Shown here in pieces: positions 28,752 through 37,339 of a stretch of DNA of 51,956 nt. A model generated the notes under the pieces. That model was not told the origin of the DNA and searched no databases. It saw nothing but the letters and a program-made list of their open reading frames with translations. A program made the translations under genes and the position numbers. Each line of letters begins with the position of its first letter. Position 1 is the stretch's first letter. The stretch is from Gemmatimonadaceae bacterium. GTDB lineage: Bacteria; Gemmatimonadota; Gemmatimonadetes; Gemmatimonadales; Gemmatimonadaceae. The stretch is taken from assembly GCA_025450035.1 (NCBI GenBank), contig JANWIF010000049.1, positions 1 through 51,956 of the forward strand, read 5' to 3'.

Positions 28752-28813
28752 TGGACCGCGTCTCAGATATTGGTGGCCCCCGTCGTGCGACCAGGATCTG
28801 AGACGCGATCCAC
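28751..28813. terminator. Bidirectional terminator hairpin between convergent genes
   Basis: An 18-base arm at 28751-28768 pairs with 28796-28813 with one mismatch, around a 27-base loop. The left arm begins at the last base of the protease stop. The - strand glycosyltransferase reads into the structure: its stop is at 28763-28765, so its last dozen or so codons lie in the loop and right arm. Confidence 0.75.
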
Positions 28814-29749
28814 TAGCGCCGACCGGACGCGGTGTCCCAGCCAATAGAGCATGCCCTGGCCGAGGTACCAATAGTGCAACGTCGTGCGGCGGGGCAGGCG
28901 CCATGATCGCACGTCCCTGGCTGCCAATCGCGCGTGGTACGCGAAGTCTGCGTACGCACGCACGCGCATTCCCCCGCCGCGGCCGGGCGCCAGGAGATAC
29001 TTCCCGAATAGGGCGCCGCGGGCCACGGAATACGCGCGTGTCAGATGCCGCGCCTGCGCATCCGTGCGGCGCCCGTGATTGTGGAGCACCAACAGATCGG
29101 GCGAGTACACCATCTTGAGCCCGGCCAGCAACCCGCGGTAGACATAGTCGACATCCTCGCCCGCCCGGGCGGATGTGCCACCGCCTAACGCAATATCGAA
29201 CCATCCCACCGACTCGACGACCCGGCGGCGCATTGCCATGTTGCAGCCGACGATGAGCGACACGGCGTACGGGTCGGCCACCGGCGCACGCTCGCGCGAC
29301 GTCCGGGTGGTCGTCGGTCGGTCGCGCAAGTCGTACAGCTCGACCCGCCCGCCCAGGATGTCGAGCTCGGGGTCGCGCGCAAACTCCGCCCCCGCGACCC
29401 ACAGCCACCGTTGGTCAGTTAGGCAATCGTCATCGGTGAGGCATACCAGCGTGCCGCGGGCCGCGGCCAATCCCGCGGTGCGCGCGCGCGACAGGCCCTG
29501 CCGGGGCTCGCGCACGACGCGCAACGGAAGCGACGACCGATGGTCGGCCAGCAGCGCCGCGGTGCCATCGGTGCTCCCGTTGTCCACGATGACCACTTCC
29601 CAGCGTACCGCCGGCGGAATCTCCAAGCGCAAGAGCTGCGTCAGCGACCGGCCGAGTGCCTCGCACCGGTTCCGCGTACACAGTAGCACCGTCACATCGA
29701 TGCCGCCGTCTGCTGTCGCCCCCGCCGCGGCCGCACTCACGTCGCCCAT
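28763..29749 (-). CDS. Family 2 glycosyltransferase
   Basis: A 328-residue GT-A-fold glycosyltransferase. It begins VTVLLCTRNRCEALGRSL, has the nucleotide-binding VDNGSTDGT at 55-63, the metal-binding DDD at 106-108, and a later GEDVDYVYR acceptor-site motif. No transmembrane domain is clear, so it probably acts at the membrane's inner face, building a repeat unit. The ATG at 29749 overlaps the end of the pyruvyl transferase gene by 13 bases. It is the last gene of the polysaccharide operon. Its extreme C-terminus is encoded by the terminator stem-loop. Sugar donor unknown. Confidence 0.9.
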   Translation of the reverse strand: MGDVSAAAAGATADGGIDVTVLLCTRNRCEALGRSLTQLLRLEIPPAVRWEVVIVDNGSTDGTAALLADHRSSLPLRVVREPRQGLSRARTAGLAAARGTLVCLTDDDCLTDQRWLWVAGAEFARDPELDILGGRVELYDLRDRPTTTRTSRERAPVADPYAVSLIVGCNMAMRRRVVESVGWFDIALGGGTSARAGEDVDYVYRGLLAGLKMVYSPDLLVLHNHGRRTDAQARHLTRAYSVARGALFGKYLLAPGRGGGMRVRAYADFAYHARLAARDVRSWRLPRRTTLHYWYLGQGMLYWLGHRVRSALVDRVSDPGRTTGATNI

Positions 29750-30780
29750 TGGGCCACCGCCTCGAGCGCCTGCGACGGAGTCTCCGCCCACCGCGCGAGC
29801 GTCGCATCGCTCGTCCACGTCTCGTAGAACTGACGCACCTTGCCGTAGTTGTTGTCCAGGACCGCGTGCGGAATGCCGAGTAGCAGGCTCAGAATGTGGC
29901 CGTGCAACCGGTCGGTGATCACGGCGCGCCCTCCGGCCAGCATGGCGCACCCCGCGCGGAATCGCTGGCCGGCGCTCCACGTCGCCAAACGCCCCAACAC
30001 GGGTGAGGCCCGTTCCAGCACGCGCGGGTGCGATCCGATCCACTCGCGCAGTAAGCGCTCGCTGCGCTCGAGCAGGGTTCGCCGCCGCGACGTCCAGTCG
30101 ATGGTGGCAAACTCTACCGGCCGAGCGCTTGGCGACGCCTCTCGGTCACGCCGCGCGAGCCAGACGATCGATGTGCGCACGCTGGTGCGACGCGGGAGCG
30201 GCCCCAGCGCGAATGCCATGTCCGGACAGAGCGCACACGGCGCGCGGAACGCCGATCGGGCGGCGTCCAGGCTGTGCGCGTCGCGCAGCAGCATGGTGAA
30301 CCGCGGATGCGCGTCGAATGCCGCCCGCGCCTCGTCGAGCGCTGAGGTACGAGCGTAGTACATCGTTTGGGGCAGCTGAATCACCCGTGTGTCGGGAAAG
30401 TCGGCCAACACCCGGTGGCGGAATTCCTCCGTGCGCGGCCACAGGTCTCCCAGGTTCCCGCCGCCGGAGAGCAGGATGACACCATCGCCTAACCGCCTGG
30501 CCAGCGCCGGACGAGAGTACGTGTCGATGCTGCACACATAGCACACGTGCTTCCCAGCGCGGTGGAGAAGCGCGAGCGTTCCCATCAAGATGGCGCTGTC
30601 GCCGATATTCTCGTGCACAGGCACATCGAGCAGTGCCACGCGCGTCACGTCGCGAAGCAGCGGCCGCACCGTCGCATCGATCCGCGCGCGCAGCGTGTCG
30701 ACGAGCGCCGCCGCCTTACTCACCGCGAGTGCCACACCGTCCGCTGGCTGTTCTCCATCGGGCGCCGGCCGCGTGTTCAT
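29737..30780 (-). CDS. Polysaccharide pyruvyl transferase family protein
   Basis: A 347-residue protein of the polysaccharide pyruvyl transferase family (CsaB/EpsI/EpsO-like), which attaches ketal pyruvate from phosphoenolpyruvate to a sugar of a surface polymer. Recognisable blocks are the N-terminal VHENIGDSAILMG, the Gly-rich LLSGGGNLGDLWP, VIQLPQTMYY, and the C-terminal VITDRLHGHILSLLLGIPHAVLDNNYGK, which is the diagnostic His-containing motif. It overlaps the ATP-binding gene upstream by four bases and the glycosyltransferase downstream by 13. The pyruvylated residue would make an acidic surface polymer, possibly a capsule or cell-wall glycan; that is inference. Confidence 0.92.
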   Translation of the reverse strand: MNTRPAPDGEQPADGVALAVSKAAALVDTLRARIDATVRPLLRDVTRVALLDVPVHENIGDSAILMGTLALLHRAGKHVCYVCSIDTYSRPALARRLGDGVILLSGGGNLGDLWPRTEEFRHRVLADFPDTRVIQLPQTMYYARTSALDEARAAFDAHPRFTMLLRDAHSLDAARSAFRAPCALCPDMAFALGPLPRRTSVRTSIVWLARRDREASPSARPVEFATIDWTSRRRTLLERSERLLREWIGSHPRVLERASPVLGRLATWSAGQRFRAGCAMLAGGRAVITDRLHGHILSLLLGIPHAVLDNNYGKVRQFYETWTSDATLARWAETPSQALEAVAQWAT

Positions 30781-32024
30781 GTGCGGCCGCTGCCCGAGCG
30801 CGTGCCGCCCGCTCCGTTAGACCGCGGAGCCGTGCCGATTGCGACGAGTTGCGCGCGCGGCAACAGATGCGCGGTGCCGCTGAAGGCCAACGCGCCAGGT
30901 TGCACCTGGAGGGTGACGCCCGGCCCGGACGCCAGATCGCGATGTGTGACGTGGTCCCACACACCGATCTCCAACGAGTACACACCGGGCGCGACGTTGA
31001 ATTGCAGATCCACGTCCAACTCGAATGGGCCCTGTGCGGGTAGTGTCGCGCCGCACGCGCTCGCCGTCGCAGTGAACACGAGTCGTCCGGTCGAGAGCGC
31101 GCGAACACGCAGCGAGCAGTCGCGCGGGCCCGGACGGTCCCCATGCACCGATCCGCTGATCCGGAATTGCGACCGCTCCCCGGCGCGCACCGGAAGGGCC
31201 GACGTGAGCACGAGTGCATCCAATACGACAGGCGACACGGCGCTCGCCGCTGGATCGCCGGGCCGTTCACGTTCCAGATAGGCTTCGATGCACTCGGTGG
31301 GCGACCCGCGCCGCACGACCTGCCCGCGATCCAGTAAGAGGGCGTGCGTGCACAACGACGCAATGCGGTCGAGCTGGTGCGACACCAGCACGACGGGGAT
31401 CCCGCTCCGGCACATCTCCTGGATCCGGTCGAATGCCTTTTGTTGGAATCGCATGTCGCCCACCGACAGCACCTCGTCGATCACGAGCACGTCGGGATTG
31501 ATGTGCGCGGCGATCGCAAAGCCCAACCGTGCATTCATGCCGTTCGAGTATCGTTTCACCGGGGTATCGATGAACGACTCGATCTCCGCGAACGCGACGA
31601 TCTCATCGAAGCGGCGCGCGATCTCGGTGCGTTTCATTCCGAGAATCGCCCCCTGCAGAAAGACATTTTCTCGACCGGTGAGATCCGGATGGAATCCCGC
31701 CGCGACCTCGATCAGCGCTCCCGCACGTCCGGTGATCGCACACGCGCCGCGCGTGGGCACCAGGATGCGCGTGAGCAGTTTCAGGATCGTGGACTTGCCC
31801 GCGCCGTTAGGCCCGAGGATGCCCAGCGCCTCACCGGGACGCACCTCGAAGGAGACGTCGCGCACCGCCCAGAACTCTTCGCCGGACAGCTCGCGCCGCG
31901 ATGGTGCGCGGCGCGCTAGGCGCCGGGCGGCGGCCGGGATGAGATCGCGGAGACTGTCGTGCAGCTCGCCGCGGGCGAACTTTTTCCAGACCTCGTGGAA
32001 CGCGATGCGCGGCTCGGTGGTCAT
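30777..32024 (-). CDS. wzt: ABC transporter ATP-binding protein with C-terminal glycan-binding domain, Wzt-like
   Basis: A 415-residue ATPase of the O-antigen/teichoic-acid exporter type. Walker A GPNGAGKS is at 71-78, the signature is the Wzt-type YSNGMNARLGFA, Walker B is VLVIDEV, and the H-loop appears as LVSHQ. After about residue 260 a beta-sandwich follows, ending near 395. In Wzt proteins this domain recognises the finished non-reducing end of the glycan, so export is coupled to a terminal modification. Pyruvate could be such a mark, given the pyruvyl transferase next door; this is inference. Start is the ATG at 32024, six bases after the permease stop. Confidence 0.92.
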   Translation of the reverse strand: MTTEPRIAFHEVWKKFARGELHDSLRDLIPAAARRLARRAPSRRELSGEEFWAVRDVSFEVRPGEALGILGPNGAGKSTILKLLTRILVPTRGACAITGRAGALIEVAAGFHPDLTGRENVFLQGAILGMKRTEIARRFDEIVAFAEIESFIDTPVKRYSNGMNARLGFAIAAHINPDVLVIDEVLSVGDMRFQQKAFDRIQEMCRSGIPVVLVSHQLDRIASLCTHALLLDRGQVVRRGSPTECIEAYLERERPGDPAASAVSPVVLDALVLTSALPVRAGERSQFRISGSVHGDRPGPRDCSLRVRALSTGRLVFTATASACGATLPAQGPFELDVDLQFNVAPGVYSLEIGVWDHVTHRDLASGPGVTLQVQPGALAFSGTAHLLPRAQLVAIGTAPRSNGAGGTRSGSGRT

Positions 32025-32030
32025 GTCGGC

Positions 32031-32933
32031 TCAGACATACTCGGCGAACAGACCTTCCGAGCGGTGAAAGATCAACGCGCTTCCCAGCAGGCCCACGACG
32101 GCCCATCCCGCACCGTACGCCAGATACCAGGGGCTCCACGCCAGGATGTCGTGCGCGCCCGCGTGGACGATCAGCGGAACGAGCAGGTTGTGCCCGTCGA
32201 CCACGCTCAGGCGCAACCCCTCGAGCAATGGCGCCAGCGGGTTGAGCATCATGAGCCTCGCGCCTAACGGGCCGAACATGCGAGGCTCGAAGAAGACCGG
32301 CGTGAAGAAGATCCCGACCGTGAGCATCACCTGCACGATGTACTTCACGTCCCGAAAGAACAGATTCGCGCACCCCAGGAACAGCGCCGCGCCCGCCGTC
32401 ACGCAGACAATGAGCAGTGCCAGCACCGGCGCCCAGAGCGCGGCGAGCCCGTAGTGCACACCCAGCAGCGGGAGCGCGAGGGCCACCGTGATCGCACCGA
32501 TGGTCGAGTCGAATCCTTGCGCCAACACGGCCGACAGCGGAAGAACTTCGCGAGGGAAATAGATCTTGGAGACCAGCGCCAGATTGCCGGTCAAACTGCT
32601 CGTGGCAAACCCGATGGCGCCCACGAAGAACGCCCATGGTAACGCCTTCACCGCCATCCCCGCGATCTCCGCGGTTTTCACGTGCCCGCCGCCCATGTAC
32701 GCCATGGCGTAGCGAACCAGCGTGCCCGCCGCCACGATCAGCGCCGGCATCAGGATCGCCCACGCGAAGCCCATCACGGCCTGCTTGTACCGGATGCGGA
32801 TGTCGCGCAACATCAGTTCGTACAACAGATCCCGGTATCGCCACAGTTCGTCGACCGCGATCACACGAAGATCGCCGAACACGGAGCGCCGGGGTGCGGG
32901 CGGAAGGTCGGTGGTGAGAGCGAGATCGGTCAT
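32031..32933 (-). CDS. wzm: ABC-2 type polysaccharide export permease, Wzm-like
   Basis: A 300-residue ABC-2 permease with about six membrane helices. The N-terminal cytoplasmic segment YRDLLYELMLRDIRIRYKQAVMGFAWAILMP is the hallmark of polysaccharide exporters (Wzm/TagG). KIYFPREVLPLSAV is the conserved loop after the second helix pair. It pairs with the ATP-binding protein encoded six bases downstream, forming the channel that moves undecaprenol-linked glycan across the inner membrane. It is the first gene of the operon; its promoter must lie within 32934-33136, which it shares with the divergent kinase-like gene. Confidence 0.92.
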   Translation of the reverse strand: MTDLALTTDLPPAPRRSVFGDLRVIAVDELWRYRDLLYELMLRDIRIRYKQAVMGFAWAILMPALIVAAGTLVRYAMAYMGGGHVKTAEIAGMAVKALPWAFFVGAIGFATSSLTGNLALVSKIYFPREVLPLSAVLAQGFDSTIGAITVALALPLLGVHYGLAALWAPVLALLIVCVTAGAALFLGCANLFFRDVKYIVQVMLTVGIFFTPVFFEPRMFGPLGARLMMLNPLAPLLEGLRLSVVDGHNLLVPLIVHAGAHDILAWSPWYLAYGAGWAVVGLLGSALIFHRSEGLFAEYV

Positions 32934-33136
32934 GCGGACGTGGAAAGACGGGGCGGCGGTGCGCGCCCATCGCGTGTCCTGCGTGGCGCAGCTATCATGC
33001 CACGGTCGTGCTCGGATGATACGGCCCCTCGACCGCCGGCAACAGTCATCCCGCCTTTCTCATGGTCGCCGAACGTGTTGCGGTGGCATGATATTGCAGG
33101 GCTGCACGCCACGAATCGCCGCTCGAGGACCACATC

Positions 33137-33820
33137 GTGATCGAGACCGTGCCTTCCCGTGTTCCGACCGGCACCGCCGGCGAAACTTCACCATTCGATA
33201 CCGCGTGGACCAACGTGCGTGACGCGCTCCTTTGCGGGTTGACCCACTCCCTCAGCAATCGTGTAATGGCCATCGCCACGCTCGCCGAGCTGGCGTCAGG
33301 CCCAACGCCGGAGCCGCGAGCGGGCGAGGTGCTGTCTGCGGAGTCTCACCGGTTGGATGCACTCTTGCGACAGTTCCGAATGTTGTGCGCAACGGATCCC
33401 GCGCAGTGCGAGCCGGTACACCTCGGCGATCTGCTGCCGTCGTTGGTCGCGCTGAGTACGCGGCATCCAGAGGCGACCGACCTGCCGTGCGAGCTCGACG
33501 TGGACACGGGAGCGCAACCGGCGTGGGGCGATCCGGCTTGCATCCAACGAGTCGTCCTCACGTTGATCGTCGCGGCCACGCGCGCGGCGCGGCGCATGGC
33601 CGTGCCCGTGGTCCGATTGCGTGTGTGGGGCGATGATCGAACGACGATCGTGAGCGCGTGTGTGGAGCGTGGTGGCGCGGGACGTGCCGAGCCTACCCGC
33701 GTCCAACCGGTTCCGGCGCCTGGAACGCACCCGATTCGCATTATCGAACCGCTGGACGGCGGCGTACGCTACGAACTGATCCTGCCGGCGCTCGTCGAGG
33801 CGCGGCGGCGCGGCGTGTGA
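33137..33820 (+). CDS. Degenerate histidine-kinase-like protein (DHp-like, no ATP-binding motifs)
   Basis: A 227-residue protein that looks like a kinase core without its catalytic parts. LTHSLSNRVMAIATLAEL (His37) resembles the phosphoacceptor helix of HisKA/ChpT-type phosphotransferases. The following domain has the layout of an HATPase, with AWGDPACIQRVVLTLIVAATRAA in the N-box position. It lacks the N-box Asn and the DxGxG glycine boxes. It may therefore be a phosphotransferase or a scaffold rather than an autokinase. It lies tail to tail with the sigma-factor gene, 13 bases away, and close to the NtrC-type regulator gene. Start is the GTG at 33137. Family assignment is tentative. Confidence 0.6.
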   Translation: MIETVPSRVPTGTAGETSPFDTAWTNVRDALLCGLTHSLSNRVMAIATLAELASGPTPEPRAGEVLSAESHRLDALLRQFRMLCATDPAQCEPVHLGDLLPSLVALSTRHPEATDLPCELDVDTGAQPAWGDPACIQRVVLTLIVAATRAARRMAVPVVRLRVWGDDRTTIVSACVERGGAGRAEPTRVQPVPAPGTHPIRIIEPLDGGVRYELILPALVEARRRGV

Positions 33821-33833
33821 CGCCGTCGTGCCG

Positions 33834-34601
33834 TTAGGCCACGAGTGTCCGCGACGGCGCCAGCGCCGCGCGCAGGCGGACGATGGCCTTCTGCTTGATC
33901 TGCGACACGCGCGACTCGGTGACGTCGAGCACGCGCGCGATGTCGGACAGCTTCAGCGCTTCCAGATAATACAGCGTCAGCACGCGACGCTCCACCGCCG
34001 GGAGCTCGAGTACCGCGGCGCTCAGTAATTGGAGCTCTTGCTCGCGCGTGATATGCTCTTCGACGCCTGGCTCGCCCTCGCCATCGCCGGCGGCGAGCGT
34101 CTCGGCCAGTGTCGGGTGCTCGCCGTCTTCGCCGGCCACCGTCTCGTCGAGGCCGACATGCATCGTGCACGCCGCGTCCAGTTGCCACCGACTCACCGTT
34201 TCGACGTCGACGCCCAATCGCATGGCGGTCTCGCCAGTTCGCGGCGCCCGTCCCAGCTCGTGTCCTAACGCCTCCTGAGCCGCGCTCAACAATCGCGCGC
34301 GGCGACGGACCGACGACGGCACGTGGTCCAGTCGCCGAAGGTCGTCGATGATGGCGCCGTGAATGCGCGGCACCGCGTACGTGCTGAAGGCGTGCCCACG
34401 CGTAACGTCGAACCGGTCCAGCGCATCGGCAAGACCGAGCGTGCCCGCGCTCAACAATTCATCGAGCTCCACAGCGCCACCCAACCGACGGTGGACACCG
34501 CGAGCGACGTGATGCACGAGGTTCAGGTGGCCCGCGATCAACTGCTCGCGAGCGTTCTCGTCGCCGGTCCTGAACCGCTGCCACAGTTCCGCGTCCAACA
34601 T
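33834..34601 (-). CDS. fliA: RNA polymerase sigma factor, FliA/WhiG (sigma-28) type
   Basis: A 255-residue sigma-70 family factor of the sigma-28 group. Region 2 shows LDELLSAGTLGLADALDRFD and HAFSTYAVPRIHGAIIDDLRRLDHVPSSVRR, near-diagnostic for FliA/WhiG. Region 3 (ARLLSAAQEALGHELGRAPRTGETAMRLGV) and region 4 (LPAVERRVLTLYYLEALKLSDIARVLDVTESRVSQIKQKA) follow. An acidic stretch separates 3 and 4. Its presence agrees with the near-consensus sigma-28 promoter at 36407-36433 before a FlgM-like ORF. The start is the ATG at 34601, with no strong ribosome site. No flagellar structural genes are in the window, so a motility role is inferred. Confidence 0.9.
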   Translation of the reverse strand: MLDAELWQRFRTGDENAREQLIAGHLNLVHHVARGVHRRLGGAVELDELLSAGTLGLADALDRFDVTRGHAFSTYAVPRIHGAIIDDLRRLDHVPSSVRRRARLLSAAQEALGHELGRAPRTGETAMRLGVDVETVSRWQLDAACTMHVGLDETVAGEDGEHPTLAETLAAGDGEGEPGVEEHITREQELQLLSAAVLELPAVERRVLTLYYLEALKLSDIARVLDVTESRVSQIKQKAIVRLRAALAPSRTLVA

Positions 34602-34893
34602 GCTGCCTTTGCGTTGAGGGCCTCACAAAGGCGCCCATCGCGCGCTTTGCTGGACCTCACCAAGGCAACCGACGCGCCACGCCATGACGGTCCGGACCGC
34701 CGCATCCCGTCGCGATGCCCACGGTCGCGCAACGTGCAGCCACCGATGGAGTTGGGCGTGGGGCCAAGCCCCGCTGACAGGCGCTCGCGAGGAACACCGC
34801 GGCCCGTGCGAGGCGACCAAGAACGGCCGCGCGGCAGAAACTGCCCAACCGGGCCGGGCACGAGTTGCCGCCGGCGCCCGGAAGGCCGCACCC
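34602..34893. other. Intergenic region upstream of the sigma factor gene
   Basis: Lies between the end of the NtrC-type gene and the sigma gene, both on the - strand. I see no gene, RNA or clear promoter in it; it presumably carries the sigma gene's promoter. Confidence 0.5.
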
Positions 34894-36297
34894 TCACTCG
34901 GCGGCGGTCTGACCGCGTGGCGGGCCGTTCAGTTTGTAGCGGAGCGTGCGAACACTGATGCCCAACAACCCGGCGGCGCGCGTCCGGTTCGAGCGCGTGA
35001 CCTGCAACGCACGGGCGATCAGTGCCTCTTCGGCCTCGGCCAGGCTCAACGTCGTAAGAAGCACACCGTCCGGGGAAGCGCCATGTGATGGTGCTGGCGT
35101 GGTTCCATTCGTGGGCGCCGGTCTCATGTCGCGGAACGTGTCGGCGTCGAGCGCACGCGCCTGGAGCACCGTGTCGGAGCTCAGAATCACCGCGCGCTCG
35201 ATGACGTGTTGCAGCTCGCGCACGTTCCCTGGCCACTGATGGCGCTGCAATACGCACAACGCCTCGGGCGCGATTCCCGTGATCTCCTTCCCCGATTCCG
35301 CCGCCGCGCGCACGGCAAAACGCTGGGCAAGCATCGGCACATCCTCGAGCCGCTCGCGCAACGGCGGAATGCGCACTGGAATCACGCTCAGCCGGAAGAA
35401 GAGATCTTGCCGGAAGCGTCCGGCAGCTGTTTCCGCCGCCAGATCACGGTTAGTCGTCGCAATCACGCGCACATCAACGCGGATCGGCGAGGTACCACCC
35501 ACGCGCTCGAACTCCTGCTCCTGCAGCACGCGCAGCAACTTGGCTTGGAGGTCGAGGCGCATTTCGGAGATCTCATCAAGCAGCAGCGTGCCGCCGTGCG
35601 AACGCTCGAACGCGCCTTCGACACGCTTCACCGCACCCGTGAAGGCGCCGCGCTCGTGCCCGAACAGCGCGCTCTCCACGAGGCCTTCCGGCAGCGCCGC
35701 ACAGTTCAGCTTGATGAATGGGCGATCGCGTCGGTCACTCAACTCGTGAATCGCGCGCGCGAATAACTCTTTGCCCGTTCCTGATTCTCCCTGCAAGAGC
35801 ACCGTGGCGCGCGTGGGCGCTGCAGTGGCGGCGGCCTGCAGCGCGCGGCGAATAGCCGGGCTCTCACCAATGATCTGACGCTCGCTCCGCGCTTCCATCA
35901 CTTCCCGCCGCAACGCCGCGTTCTCACGGCGCAAGCGGACGAACTCCAATGCCTGAGCTACGGCGAGCTCGAGTTGGGCGGTGCGCACAGGTTTGGTGAT
36001 GTAGTCCACAGCGCCCGCCTTGATCGATGCCACGGCGTGCTCGATGCTGGCGTAACCCGTGATCATGATCAGCGGCGTGTCGTAGCCCTCGCGCTCGAGC
36101 AGCTCCAGGAGTTCGAGGCCCGTCATCCCCGGCATGCGAGAGTCGGAGATGATCAGGTCGACGTCGCCGCGCGCGAGCATAGCAAGCGCCTCGGGCACGT
36201 TGGCCGCGTTCAGCGGCTGATGCCCGGCTTGCTTCAGCGAGTCTGCCAGGAGCAGAGAAATCGCCGGATCGTCGTCGACACAGAGTACGGTAGCCAT
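34894..36297 (-). CDS. Sigma-54-dependent response regulator, NtrC family
   Basis: A 467-residue regulator with three domains. The receiver has acidic CVDDDP and the phosphoacceptor D52 in ISDSRMPG. The AAA+ domain begins at about 145 with Walker A GESGTGKE, the sigma-54-contact loop GAFTGA and the Walker B-type LLLDEIS. A Fis-type helix-turn-helix follows at the C-terminus (RAAGLLGISVRTLRYKLNG). All catalytic motifs are intact, so it should activate sigma-54 promoters when phosphorylated. Start choice is the ATG at 36297; a GTG at 36315 would add six residues. No cognate kinase lies next to it apart from the degenerate one at 33137. Confidence 0.94.
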   Translation of the reverse strand: MATVLCVDDDPAISLLLADSLKQAGHQPLNAANVPEALAMLARGDVDLIISDSRMPGMTGLELLELLEREGYDTPLIMITGYASIEHAVASIKAGAVDYITKPVRTAQLELAVAQALEFVRLRRENAALRREVMEARSERQIIGESPAIRRALQAAATAAPTRATVLLQGESGTGKELFARAIHELSDRRDRPFIKLNCAALPEGLVESALFGHERGAFTGAVKRVEGAFERSHGGTLLLDEISEMRLDLQAKLLRVLQEQEFERVGGTSPIRVDVRVIATTNRDLAAETAAGRFRQDLFFRLSVIPVRIPPLRERLEDVPMLAQRFAVRAAAESGKEITGIAPEALCVLQRHQWPGNVRELQHVIERAVILSSDTVLQARALDADTFRDMRPAPTNGTTPAPSHGASPDGVLLTTLSLAEAEEALIARALQVTRSNRTRAAGLLGISVRTLRYKLNGPPRGQTAAE

Positions 36298-36406
36298 CGC
36301 CCCAAAGACGCCCACCCGAGGCAGTCGGCAACGATTTCCGAGACGCCTGTGCCGCCCGGCAATGCTGGGGTCGTGCTTTCGAGCGGGGACTCGTTGTAGC
36401 GGGCGC

Positions 36407-36433
36407 TAAAGTTTCTGGCGAGCCAACCGATGA
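36407..36433 (+). promoter_or_regulatory. Sigma-28 promoter upstream of the FlgM-like ORF
   Basis: TAAAGTTT at 36407-36414, an 11-base spacer, and ACCGATGA at 36426-36433. The enterobacterial FliA consensus is TAAAGTTT-N11-GCCGATAA, so 14 of 16 bases match with the correct spacing. Transcription would begin near 36440. Confidence 0.75.
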
Positions 36434-36440
36434 TCCTGGC

Positions 36441-36653
36441 ATGACCACCACACGTCGGAACGATCTCGATGCCGCGCCGTGCAATGGACGCGCGATGGAG
36501 GGACGTAGCAGCTCCCTCGTGACCACGACCCGCACGTCAATGAACAGACATCAGGTGGACGCGATTAGGAGACGGATCTGCGATGGCGACTATGATACCC
36601 CACAGGCCGTCGACGCCGTGGCGCGCCGCATTCTTGAGAGCGGAGATCTCTAG
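36441..36653 (+). CDS. flgM: FlgM-like anti-sigma-28 factor
   Basis: A small ORF of up to 70 residues whose C-terminal 35 match the FlgM pattern (about V-x-x-[IL]-R-x-x-I-x-x-G-x-Y and then A-x-x-[IL]-L). Here it reads HQVDAIRRRICDGDYD, then VDAVARRILESG. FlgM binds and holds off the flagellar sigma-28 until export. A FliA-type sigma gene is 1.8 kb away and a sigma-28 promoter lies directly upstream, as expected for flgM. The ATG at 36441 falls within a base or two of the predicted transcript start, so translation would be leaderless; ATGs at 36495 and 36540 are alternatives, neither with a ribosome site. The ORF is shorter than classical FlgM (about 90-100), so this is a probable rather than a certain gene. 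Confidence 0.65.
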   Translation: MTTTRRNDLDAAPCNGRAMEGRSSSLVTTTRTSMNRHQVDAIRRRICDGDYDTPQAVDAVARRILESGDL

Positions 36654-36679: not shown

Positions 36680-37339
36680 CTAGGCGCGAGCCCGGTTCAA
36701 CCGCTGAGCAAACCACAGCGTGGAATCCTCGAGGTCGCCCGGCACGAGCTCGTGTCCCGCCCGCTGCCACCGAAGCGTGACGCCGGCGCCAGCTGCCTCC
36801 ATAACGTCCGCCAGCCGCTGCGTCCGCTCAGCGGGTGACATGGGATCCTGGCGCCCGCCGGAGATCAACACCTCCGTTCCATCCAGGGGCGGCGGCGGCG
36901 CGAGTTCAAGCGGCAACACGGCGCGGAGCAGTACTGCGCCGCGCAACAAGCCCGGCTCGAGAAGGAATATACTCGCCGCGATGTTCGCGCCGTTCGAGTA
37001 GCCCAGCGCGTACAGCGACGACGTCGCGAATCCGTACTCGTGCGACGCCGTGCGGATGAACTCTGCAAGCTCGGGAACTCGGGCGCGGATGTCAGCCTCG
37101 TCGAACACCCCTTCGGCATGCCGGCGAAAGAAGCGCGGCATGCCGAGCTCGAGCACCCTGCCGCGTGGGCTCAGCAGCGACGCGCCCGGCGCGAGTGTAG
37201 CGCCCAACGACAATAAATCGGATTCATCACCGCCGGTTCCGTGCAGCAGGAGCACCGTGGCTCCCCCCCCCCCCCCTCCCCCCTTCGCGCGTTCGGGGCC
37301 GCTCACCCAGCGGTGCGGCCATTCGGCAAGCGTGGTCAT
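36680..37339 (-). CDS. Carboxylesterase / phospholipase family alpha/beta-hydrolase with N-terminal poly-Gly run
   Basis: A 219-residue hydrolase of the carboxylesterase/phospholipase family (MhqO/YpfH-like). The catalytic triad can be read as Ser115 in GYSNGAN, Asp165 in GGRQDPMSP and His196 in AGHELVPG; LLLHGTGGDESDLL forms the oxyanion region. Residues 20-26 are seven consecutive glycines encoded by a G-run with one A interruption (37263-37283 on the + strand is 14 C, T, 6 C). A one-base slip there would frameshift the whole domain. Start is the ATG at 37339. It stands alone between the FlgM-like ORF and the DUF421 gene. Substrate unknown. Confidence 0.87.
   Translation of the reverse strand: MTTLAEWPHRWVSGPERAKGGGGGGGATVLLLHGTGGDESDLLSLGATLAPGASLLSPRGRVLELGMPRFFRRHAEGVFDEADIRARVPELAEFIRTASHEYGFATSSLYALGYSNGANIAASIFLLEPGLLRGAVLLRAVLPLELAPPPPLDGTEVLISGGRQDPMSPAERTQRLADVMEAAGAGVTLRWQRAGHELVPGDLEDSTLWFAQRLNRARA
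37263..37283. repeat. Homopolymer C14-T-C6 inside the esterase gene
   Basis: Fourteen C, one T, six C. On the coding (-) strand it is G-rich and sits near codons 20-26. Long homopolymers are unusual in coding DNA and are the kind of site that gives phase variation or sequencing error. Confidence 0.9.

Follow-up and report, generated by a model that had tools for sequence, protein, structure and literature searches.

FlgM is the textbook anti-sigma factor that is controlled by its own secretion, and its export signal lies in the N-terminus. Sigma factors of the FliA/WhiG family are also used without a flagellum, as by Streptomyces, where the anti-sigma factor of WhiG is RsiG with cyclic-di-GMP and is not FlgM-like. 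The direct precedent for FliA and FlgM without a flagellum is Legionella oakridgensis. This species is reported to have no flagellum and to have kept functional FliA and FlgM (Tlapak et al. 2017, via PMC5655016); flgM expression is sigma-28-dependent both there and in L. pneumophila, and the L. oakridgensis FlgM seems to be degraded and not secreted (PMC5655016). More broadly, FliA homologs have been reported in 41% of non-motile genomes (PMC12199754).

Here we describe a locus of this kind from a member of the Gemmatimonadaceae. The window, that is, the whole 51,956-nucleotide stretch of DNA analysed, is the complete contig C49 of a 3.5-Mb draft genome that is 81% complete. We consider it rather likely that this locus represents a compact regulatory module of sigma-28 and its anti-sigma factor in an apparently flagellum-less genus, which seems to have retained a known motility switch and adapted it to another, non-flagellar use. 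Its features, in order along the window, are as follows.

33137..33820, plus strand: histidine-kinase-like protein with a GLTHSLSNRV box, encoded convergently to the sigma gene; weak NCBIfam matches to AtoS/VirA-type kinases
33834..34601, minus strand: FliA/WhiG-family sigma factor (sigma-28), 255 aa; TIGR02479 at 193.8 bits, cut-off 189.6
34665..34679, minus strand: sigma-54-type promoter, TGGCGC-N5-TTGC, 9/10 to consensus, ~79 nt upstream of the sigma start
34832..34870, no strand assigned: pair of GGCA-N5-TGCC dyads between the regulator and sigma genes, in a block conserved in 5 congeners
34894..36297, minus strand: NtrC-type sigma-54-dependent response regulator; Pfam receiver, AAA+ with GAFTGA, and Fis HTH
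36326..36340, no strand assigned: CGGCA-N5-TTCCG dyad between the regulator gene and flgM, conserved in 5 congeners
36407..36433, plus strand: sigma-28-type promoter of the flgM-like gene, TAAAGTTT-N11-ACCGATGA, 14/16 to consensus
36441..36653, plus strand: FlgM-derived short putative anti-sigma ORF, 70 aa, ATG start, predicted leaderless

The regulator gene is divergent from flgM, and the sigma gene lies further along on the regulator's strand. As in L. oakridgensis, only sigma-28 and FlgM appear to be left of the flagellar regulon, with no basal body through which FlgM could be exported. What is new here is the phylum, Gemmatimonadota, a truncated and predicted leaderless FlgM, and, unlike in L. 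oakridgensis, one compact locus in which an NtrC-type regulator and a kinase-like gene join a sigma-54-type promoter as the module's own input; FlgM here is the C-terminal part of the protein, a comparison that leaves the length of the L. oakridgensis FlgM aside. With the Salmonella/E. coli sigma-28/FlgM loop (complexes 1rp3 and 9wsf) the locus shares the sigma family, the C-terminal FlgM helices and a sigma-28-type promoter ahead of flgM, but it appears to have no flagellar export apparatus, lacks the N-terminal part of FlgM and has a sigma gene probably under sigma-54. It resembles Streptomyces WhiG in having a FliA/WhiG-family sigma factor without a flagellum, whereas its putative anti-sigma factor is FlgM-like.

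All six genomes of the genus are draft assemblies, one of them 98% complete. In five of the six the ORF, promoter, regulator and sigma gene are kept together in synteny, which supports the original prediction, made from the window alone, of a sigma-28/anti-sigma-28 loop with flgM as a target of its own sigma. The named relatives that bear the locus are Gemmatimonadaceae or Gemmatimonadetes metagenome assemblies, and a sigma scan of the species genome collection returned three congeners and nothing else. The sixth genome, G002, is a fragmented assembly in which none of the flgM-like, sigma and regulator genes was found. Searches for FlhA, which detected it in 22 of 60 genomes, were negative in all six genus genomes, and so were searches for flagellin above cut-off (G005 gave a single partial match below threshold). 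From these FlhA and flagellin searches the genus appears to be without a flagellum and without the export apparatus, so that the earlier observation that no flagellar structural genes are present extends to the genus level; with no FlhA in the six genomes, export of FlgM via a flagellar type III apparatus appears not to be a feature of this system. The regulator-sigma pair with a divergent FlgM-like ORF has also been kept in three further genera, G014, G018 and G025, which lack both FlhA and flagellin. A separate observation concerns G021, where three extra FHIPEP fragments (C2:4814662-4817185) lie beside the full flagellar FlhA and might belong to a second type III apparatus.

Judged by homology, the 70-aa ORF is a descendant of FlgM that has retained mainly the sigma-binding end. 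Residues ~33-70 match the FlgM C-terminus, the sigma-binding part, and a profile-profile comparison matches the final 44 residues to the family's full-length FlgMs (E = 6e-17, 44 columns), in agreement with the FlgM C-terminal pattern originally noticed. Counterparts in four of the five other genus genomes are 39-49% identical (E = 7e-13 to 1e-8), and FlgMs of the wider family are matched with E-values down to 6.5e-8. The check proposed at the outset, an HMM search for FlgM, thus had a divided outcome: homology to relatives is well above background, but Pfam FlgM (PF04316) scores only 13.4 bits (E = 0.09) against a gathering cut-off of 25. A Pfam search for FlgM in the genome itself was negative and the NCBIfam search of the ORF gave no match. 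The same Pfam family matches 13/13 full-length family FlgMs and four of nine non-flagellar short copies, with a best E-value of 0.038. Solved FlgM structures (9wsf and, weakly, 1rp3) are found by the profile of full-length family FlgMs, while the short-FlgM profile returned only chance cupin matches among solved structures. An AlphaFold model of the ORF (mean pLDDT 61) has residues 1-35 without regular structure followed by helices at 36-47 and 54-67, and the two-helix C-terminal sigma-binding segment of FlgM is present by both profile match and predicted helices. Because dN/dS between congeners is mostly ~0.2-0.5, indicating purifying selection, we regard the ORF as a real gene. Since the FlgM cut-off is not reached and the N-terminal and export features are missing, we call it FlgM-derived or FlgM-like rather than FlgM.

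The flagellated Gemmatimonadaceae carry direct homologs of this FlgM, FliA and NtrC-type regulator with the same promoter motif, but in these relatives the regulator gene and flgM are located alongside flagellar genes, and FlgM is 94-106 aa long with a Shine-Dalgarno leader, compared with 70-72 aa in the genus (5/5). All five genus copies lack both the conserved start of the N-terminal part and its D-V-(I)S-(A)GRAL-type motif, of which D, V and S are invariant in 13/13 full-length FlgMs. In each of the genus copies the ATG follows the -10 octamer after exactly 7 nt and without a Shine-Dalgarno sequence, whereas full-length flgM genes start 19-27 nt after the octamer with a Shine-Dalgarno sequence present (15/15); none of the internal in-frame starts of the five genus copies has one either. 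In E. coli aer, the sigma-28 start site is 6 bp downstream of the -10 octamer (PMC2859248), and given the 7-nt spacing we predict that the flgM transcript starts on the ATG or no more than ~2 nt from it. A leaderless flgM mRNA, raised at first as something that might be the case, is on this comparison a firmer prediction for the five genus copies. One deletion could account for the loss of both the leader with its Shine-Dalgarno sequence and the N-terminal part.

The promoter of the flgM-like gene consists of TAAAGTTT (36407-36414), an 11-nt spacer (ctggcgagcca) and ACCGATGA (36426-36433). It is the sole site with three or fewer mismatches to the sigma-28 consensus in the 52-kb window, where shuffles lead one to expect 0.01, so the 14-of-16 match first reported upstream of the ORF is borne out. 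Across 5 congeners TAAAGTT and ACCGAT do not change, in contrast to the variable 11-nt spacer between them. On a position weight matrix (PWM) built from the flgM promoters of relatives, with the window site excluded, this site scores 21.9 (99% null = 11.4). The same PWM places its best site at -110 to -124 from the matched flagellin start in 20/20 flagellated relatives, with scores of 11.5-26.7 against the same null, and a related sigma-28-type motif precedes flgM in most family relatives. Because a matrix trained on flgM finds the flagellin sites in all 20, sigma-28-type promoters can be taken as ordinary for flagellated members of the family, and the idea that the quality of the match is notable in this lineage has to be dropped. 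The sequence and conservation of the flgM promoter are consistent with its being used by sigma-28.

As first described, a FliA/WhiG-type sigma gene lies 1.8 kb from the ORF, its identity resting on the TIGR02479 match above cut-off. Pfam sigma regions 2 and 4 are also above cut-off and region 3 is just under its own (24.5 versus 25.3); the protein is 68-71% identical in congeners, at the same locus. Two substitutions, R76H and R91S, set the genus apart, both positions being Arg in 21/21 flagellar sigmas of relatives and in E. coli FliA, whose sequence we used for numbering. These substitutions may alter promoter use or FlgM contacts. The genome of the window has a second FliA/WhiG-type sigma gene elsewhere (C108:853-1551, locus L122), 44% identical, which groups with copies in genomes of other families including G040, a genome without FlhA.

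With regard to output, it is close to an even chance that the sigma factor reads a shifted promoter and serves a real non-flagellar regulon that consensus scans have missed, a reading compatible with the loop. Both substitutions would fit such a shift, as would the genus flgM promoter, which reads ACCGATSA in place of the GCCGATAC that prevails in the family. Strict-consensus scans of the genus genomes found no second conserved sigma-28 target, with exact patterns that would catch only ~5/20 flagellin promoters, a reach that leaves room for a regulon with weaker sites; the missing second site nevertheless speaks against a shifted promoter, and so does a flgM promoter that stays near consensus. 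Most genome-wide scans gave counts near those of the reversed-pattern control. One returned an excess, partly from a repeated palindrome, GTTTTTGCCTAC-AAA-GTAGGCAAAAAC, and the best remaining sites, on inspection, were not followed by any evident gene in the proper orientation. The palindrome and its variants are scattered over genus genomes (G004 contigs C37, C40, C64, C67 and C69; G003 contigs C47, C194 and C431; loci L168, L183, L189 and L194 across the two) and have the look of a repeat family or an operator, with no relation to sigma-28.

Upstream in the proposed circuit, the regulator has all the features of its type (receiver, sigma-54 interaction domain with GAFTGA, Fis-type HTH), and in flagellated relatives its closest homologs belong to the flagellar cluster and have flagellin-type genes nearby. 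All five congeners (5/5) have the sigma-54-type promoter 76-79 nt upstream of their sigma gene, with 9/10 positions matching, and in three of these five the sigma locus holds the genome's only copy of the exact extended motif TGGMRC-N5-TTGCTTTT. The rpoN gene was found in four of the five locus-bearing genus genomes and not in that of the window (G000, 81% complete). The sigma gene is probably under sigma-54 control, and the conserved dyads are probable binding sites of the regulator; flagellated relatives have similar dyads in their flagellar cluster. In five genus genomes the kinase-like gene is the neighbour of the sigma gene, and in four other genomes it is next to a comparable sigma gene, whereas none of the flagellar sigma genes checked had it as a neighbour. 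Its product is a possible input to the regulator. Also adjoining the sigma locus is a polysaccharide-export-like operon (28763-32933; ABC-2 membrane protein, ABC ATPase, pyruvyl transferase and glycosyltransferase) with a sigma-54-like TGGCATGATAGCTGC upstream (32988-33002, minus strand) that is conserved in 3 genomes; this operon is a possible output of the regulator. On the other side of flgM, a long C tract (37265-37290) in an MhqD-like esterase gene (36680-37339, minus strand) codes for a glycine run and is a possible slippage site.

With regard to origin, the sigma factor may come from an old non-flagellar paralog group with a FlgM and a kinase-like partner of its own, which some relatives have alongside the flagellar sigma-28; the genus would then have kept this module and not a flagellar remnant. 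We give this account, which is compatible with the mechanism, appreciable weight, though a little less than the shifted regulon. G016, G027 and G033 have a second sigma besides the flagellar one; these second copies and the genus sigmas form one side of a branch in the sigma tree, and the kinase-like gene adjoins both groups and not the flagellar sigmas checked. The second locus of G033 additionally has a FlgM-like ORF and sigma-28-type and sigma-54-type sites. However, the branch has support of only 71/77, the backbones of the regulator and combined trees are unresolved, G018 has the kinase-like gene yet a sigma that is placed with the flagellar ones, and a tree constrained to unite all kinase-linked sigmas is rejected (p = 0.023). 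G014 and G025 likewise fall among flagellar sigmas. A single clade of all aflagellate copies was rejected on sigma alone (p = 0.012) and not on concatenated sigma and regulator (p = 0.064). The genus module may thus be an old paralog, and other lineages seem to have kept a remnant independently. In G033, which is flagellated, the second locus (L111, C1:809529-810840) with its kinase-like gene stands beside the flagellar set.

That the locus is a plain relic, with the flagellum lost and sigma-28, regulator and FlgM persisting as functionless, decaying leftovers, we judge improbable. Decay would agree with a regulator whose nearest kin are flagellar-cluster genes, with a FlgM already a third shorter and with the lack of a further strong-consensus sigma-28 target in the scans. 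Yet between congeners dN/dS is ~0.1-0.3 for sigma and ~0.06-0.11 for the regulator, alongside the values given above for flgM; there are no frameshifts in five genomes, the flgM promoter elements are invariant while their spacer drifts, and the sigma-54-type promoter is retained. It is more improbable still, to the point of being hard to credit, that the ORF is an unrelated small protein or chance ORF with no anti-sigma role, since against the sub-threshold Pfam score and missing NCBIfam match stand its conservation, synteny, purifying selection and FlgM C-terminus.

We therefore favor a sigma-28/anti-sigma-28 loop without a flagellum. The NtrC-type regulator would be activated by a signal, which the kinase-like protein at 33137 possibly relays, and with sigma-54 RNA polymerase it would turn on the sigma-28 gene. 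Sigma-28 RNA polymerase would then transcribe flgM from its consensus promoter, starting on or within ~2 nt of the ATG, to yield a 70-aa product with a disordered N-terminus and two C-terminal FlgM helices. We infer that this protein binds sigma-28, most likely at region 4, and shuts it down, so that sigma-28 driving its own anti-sigma would form a delayed negative feedback loop. The brake would be released by something other than flagellar secretion; because there is no flagellar type III apparatus for export, sigma-28 activity would be set by synthesis versus FlgM turnover or titration. Counting against this explanation are the weak or missing Pfam FlgM matches of the short copies, the R76H and R91S substitutions, the draft state of the genomes and the rpoN gene not found in G000.

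A more detailed history can be offered only tentatively, and in full it is rather unlikely. A single deletion would have joined the sigma-28 promoter to the sigma-binding half of FlgM, with leader, Shine-Dalgarno sequence and export segment going together. The secretion-gated checkpoint would thereby have become a closed, export-independent loop with a leaderless mRNA, fed by the kinase-like protein and the NtrC-type regulator and now timing a non-flagellar programme, with flgM maybe its main consensus target.

The loop we favor bears on what becomes of a checkpoint when the structure it monitors is lost. A lineage that has lost the secretion machine but retained sigma-28, and of FlgM just the sigma-binding part, would be a natural experiment on the function of the part of FlgM that is missing, and it may inform how such a checkpoint is rewired. 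The leaderless flgM is a concrete prediction from the locus. Together with L. oakridgensis, these genomes suggest that the pattern is now seen in a second, distant phylum.
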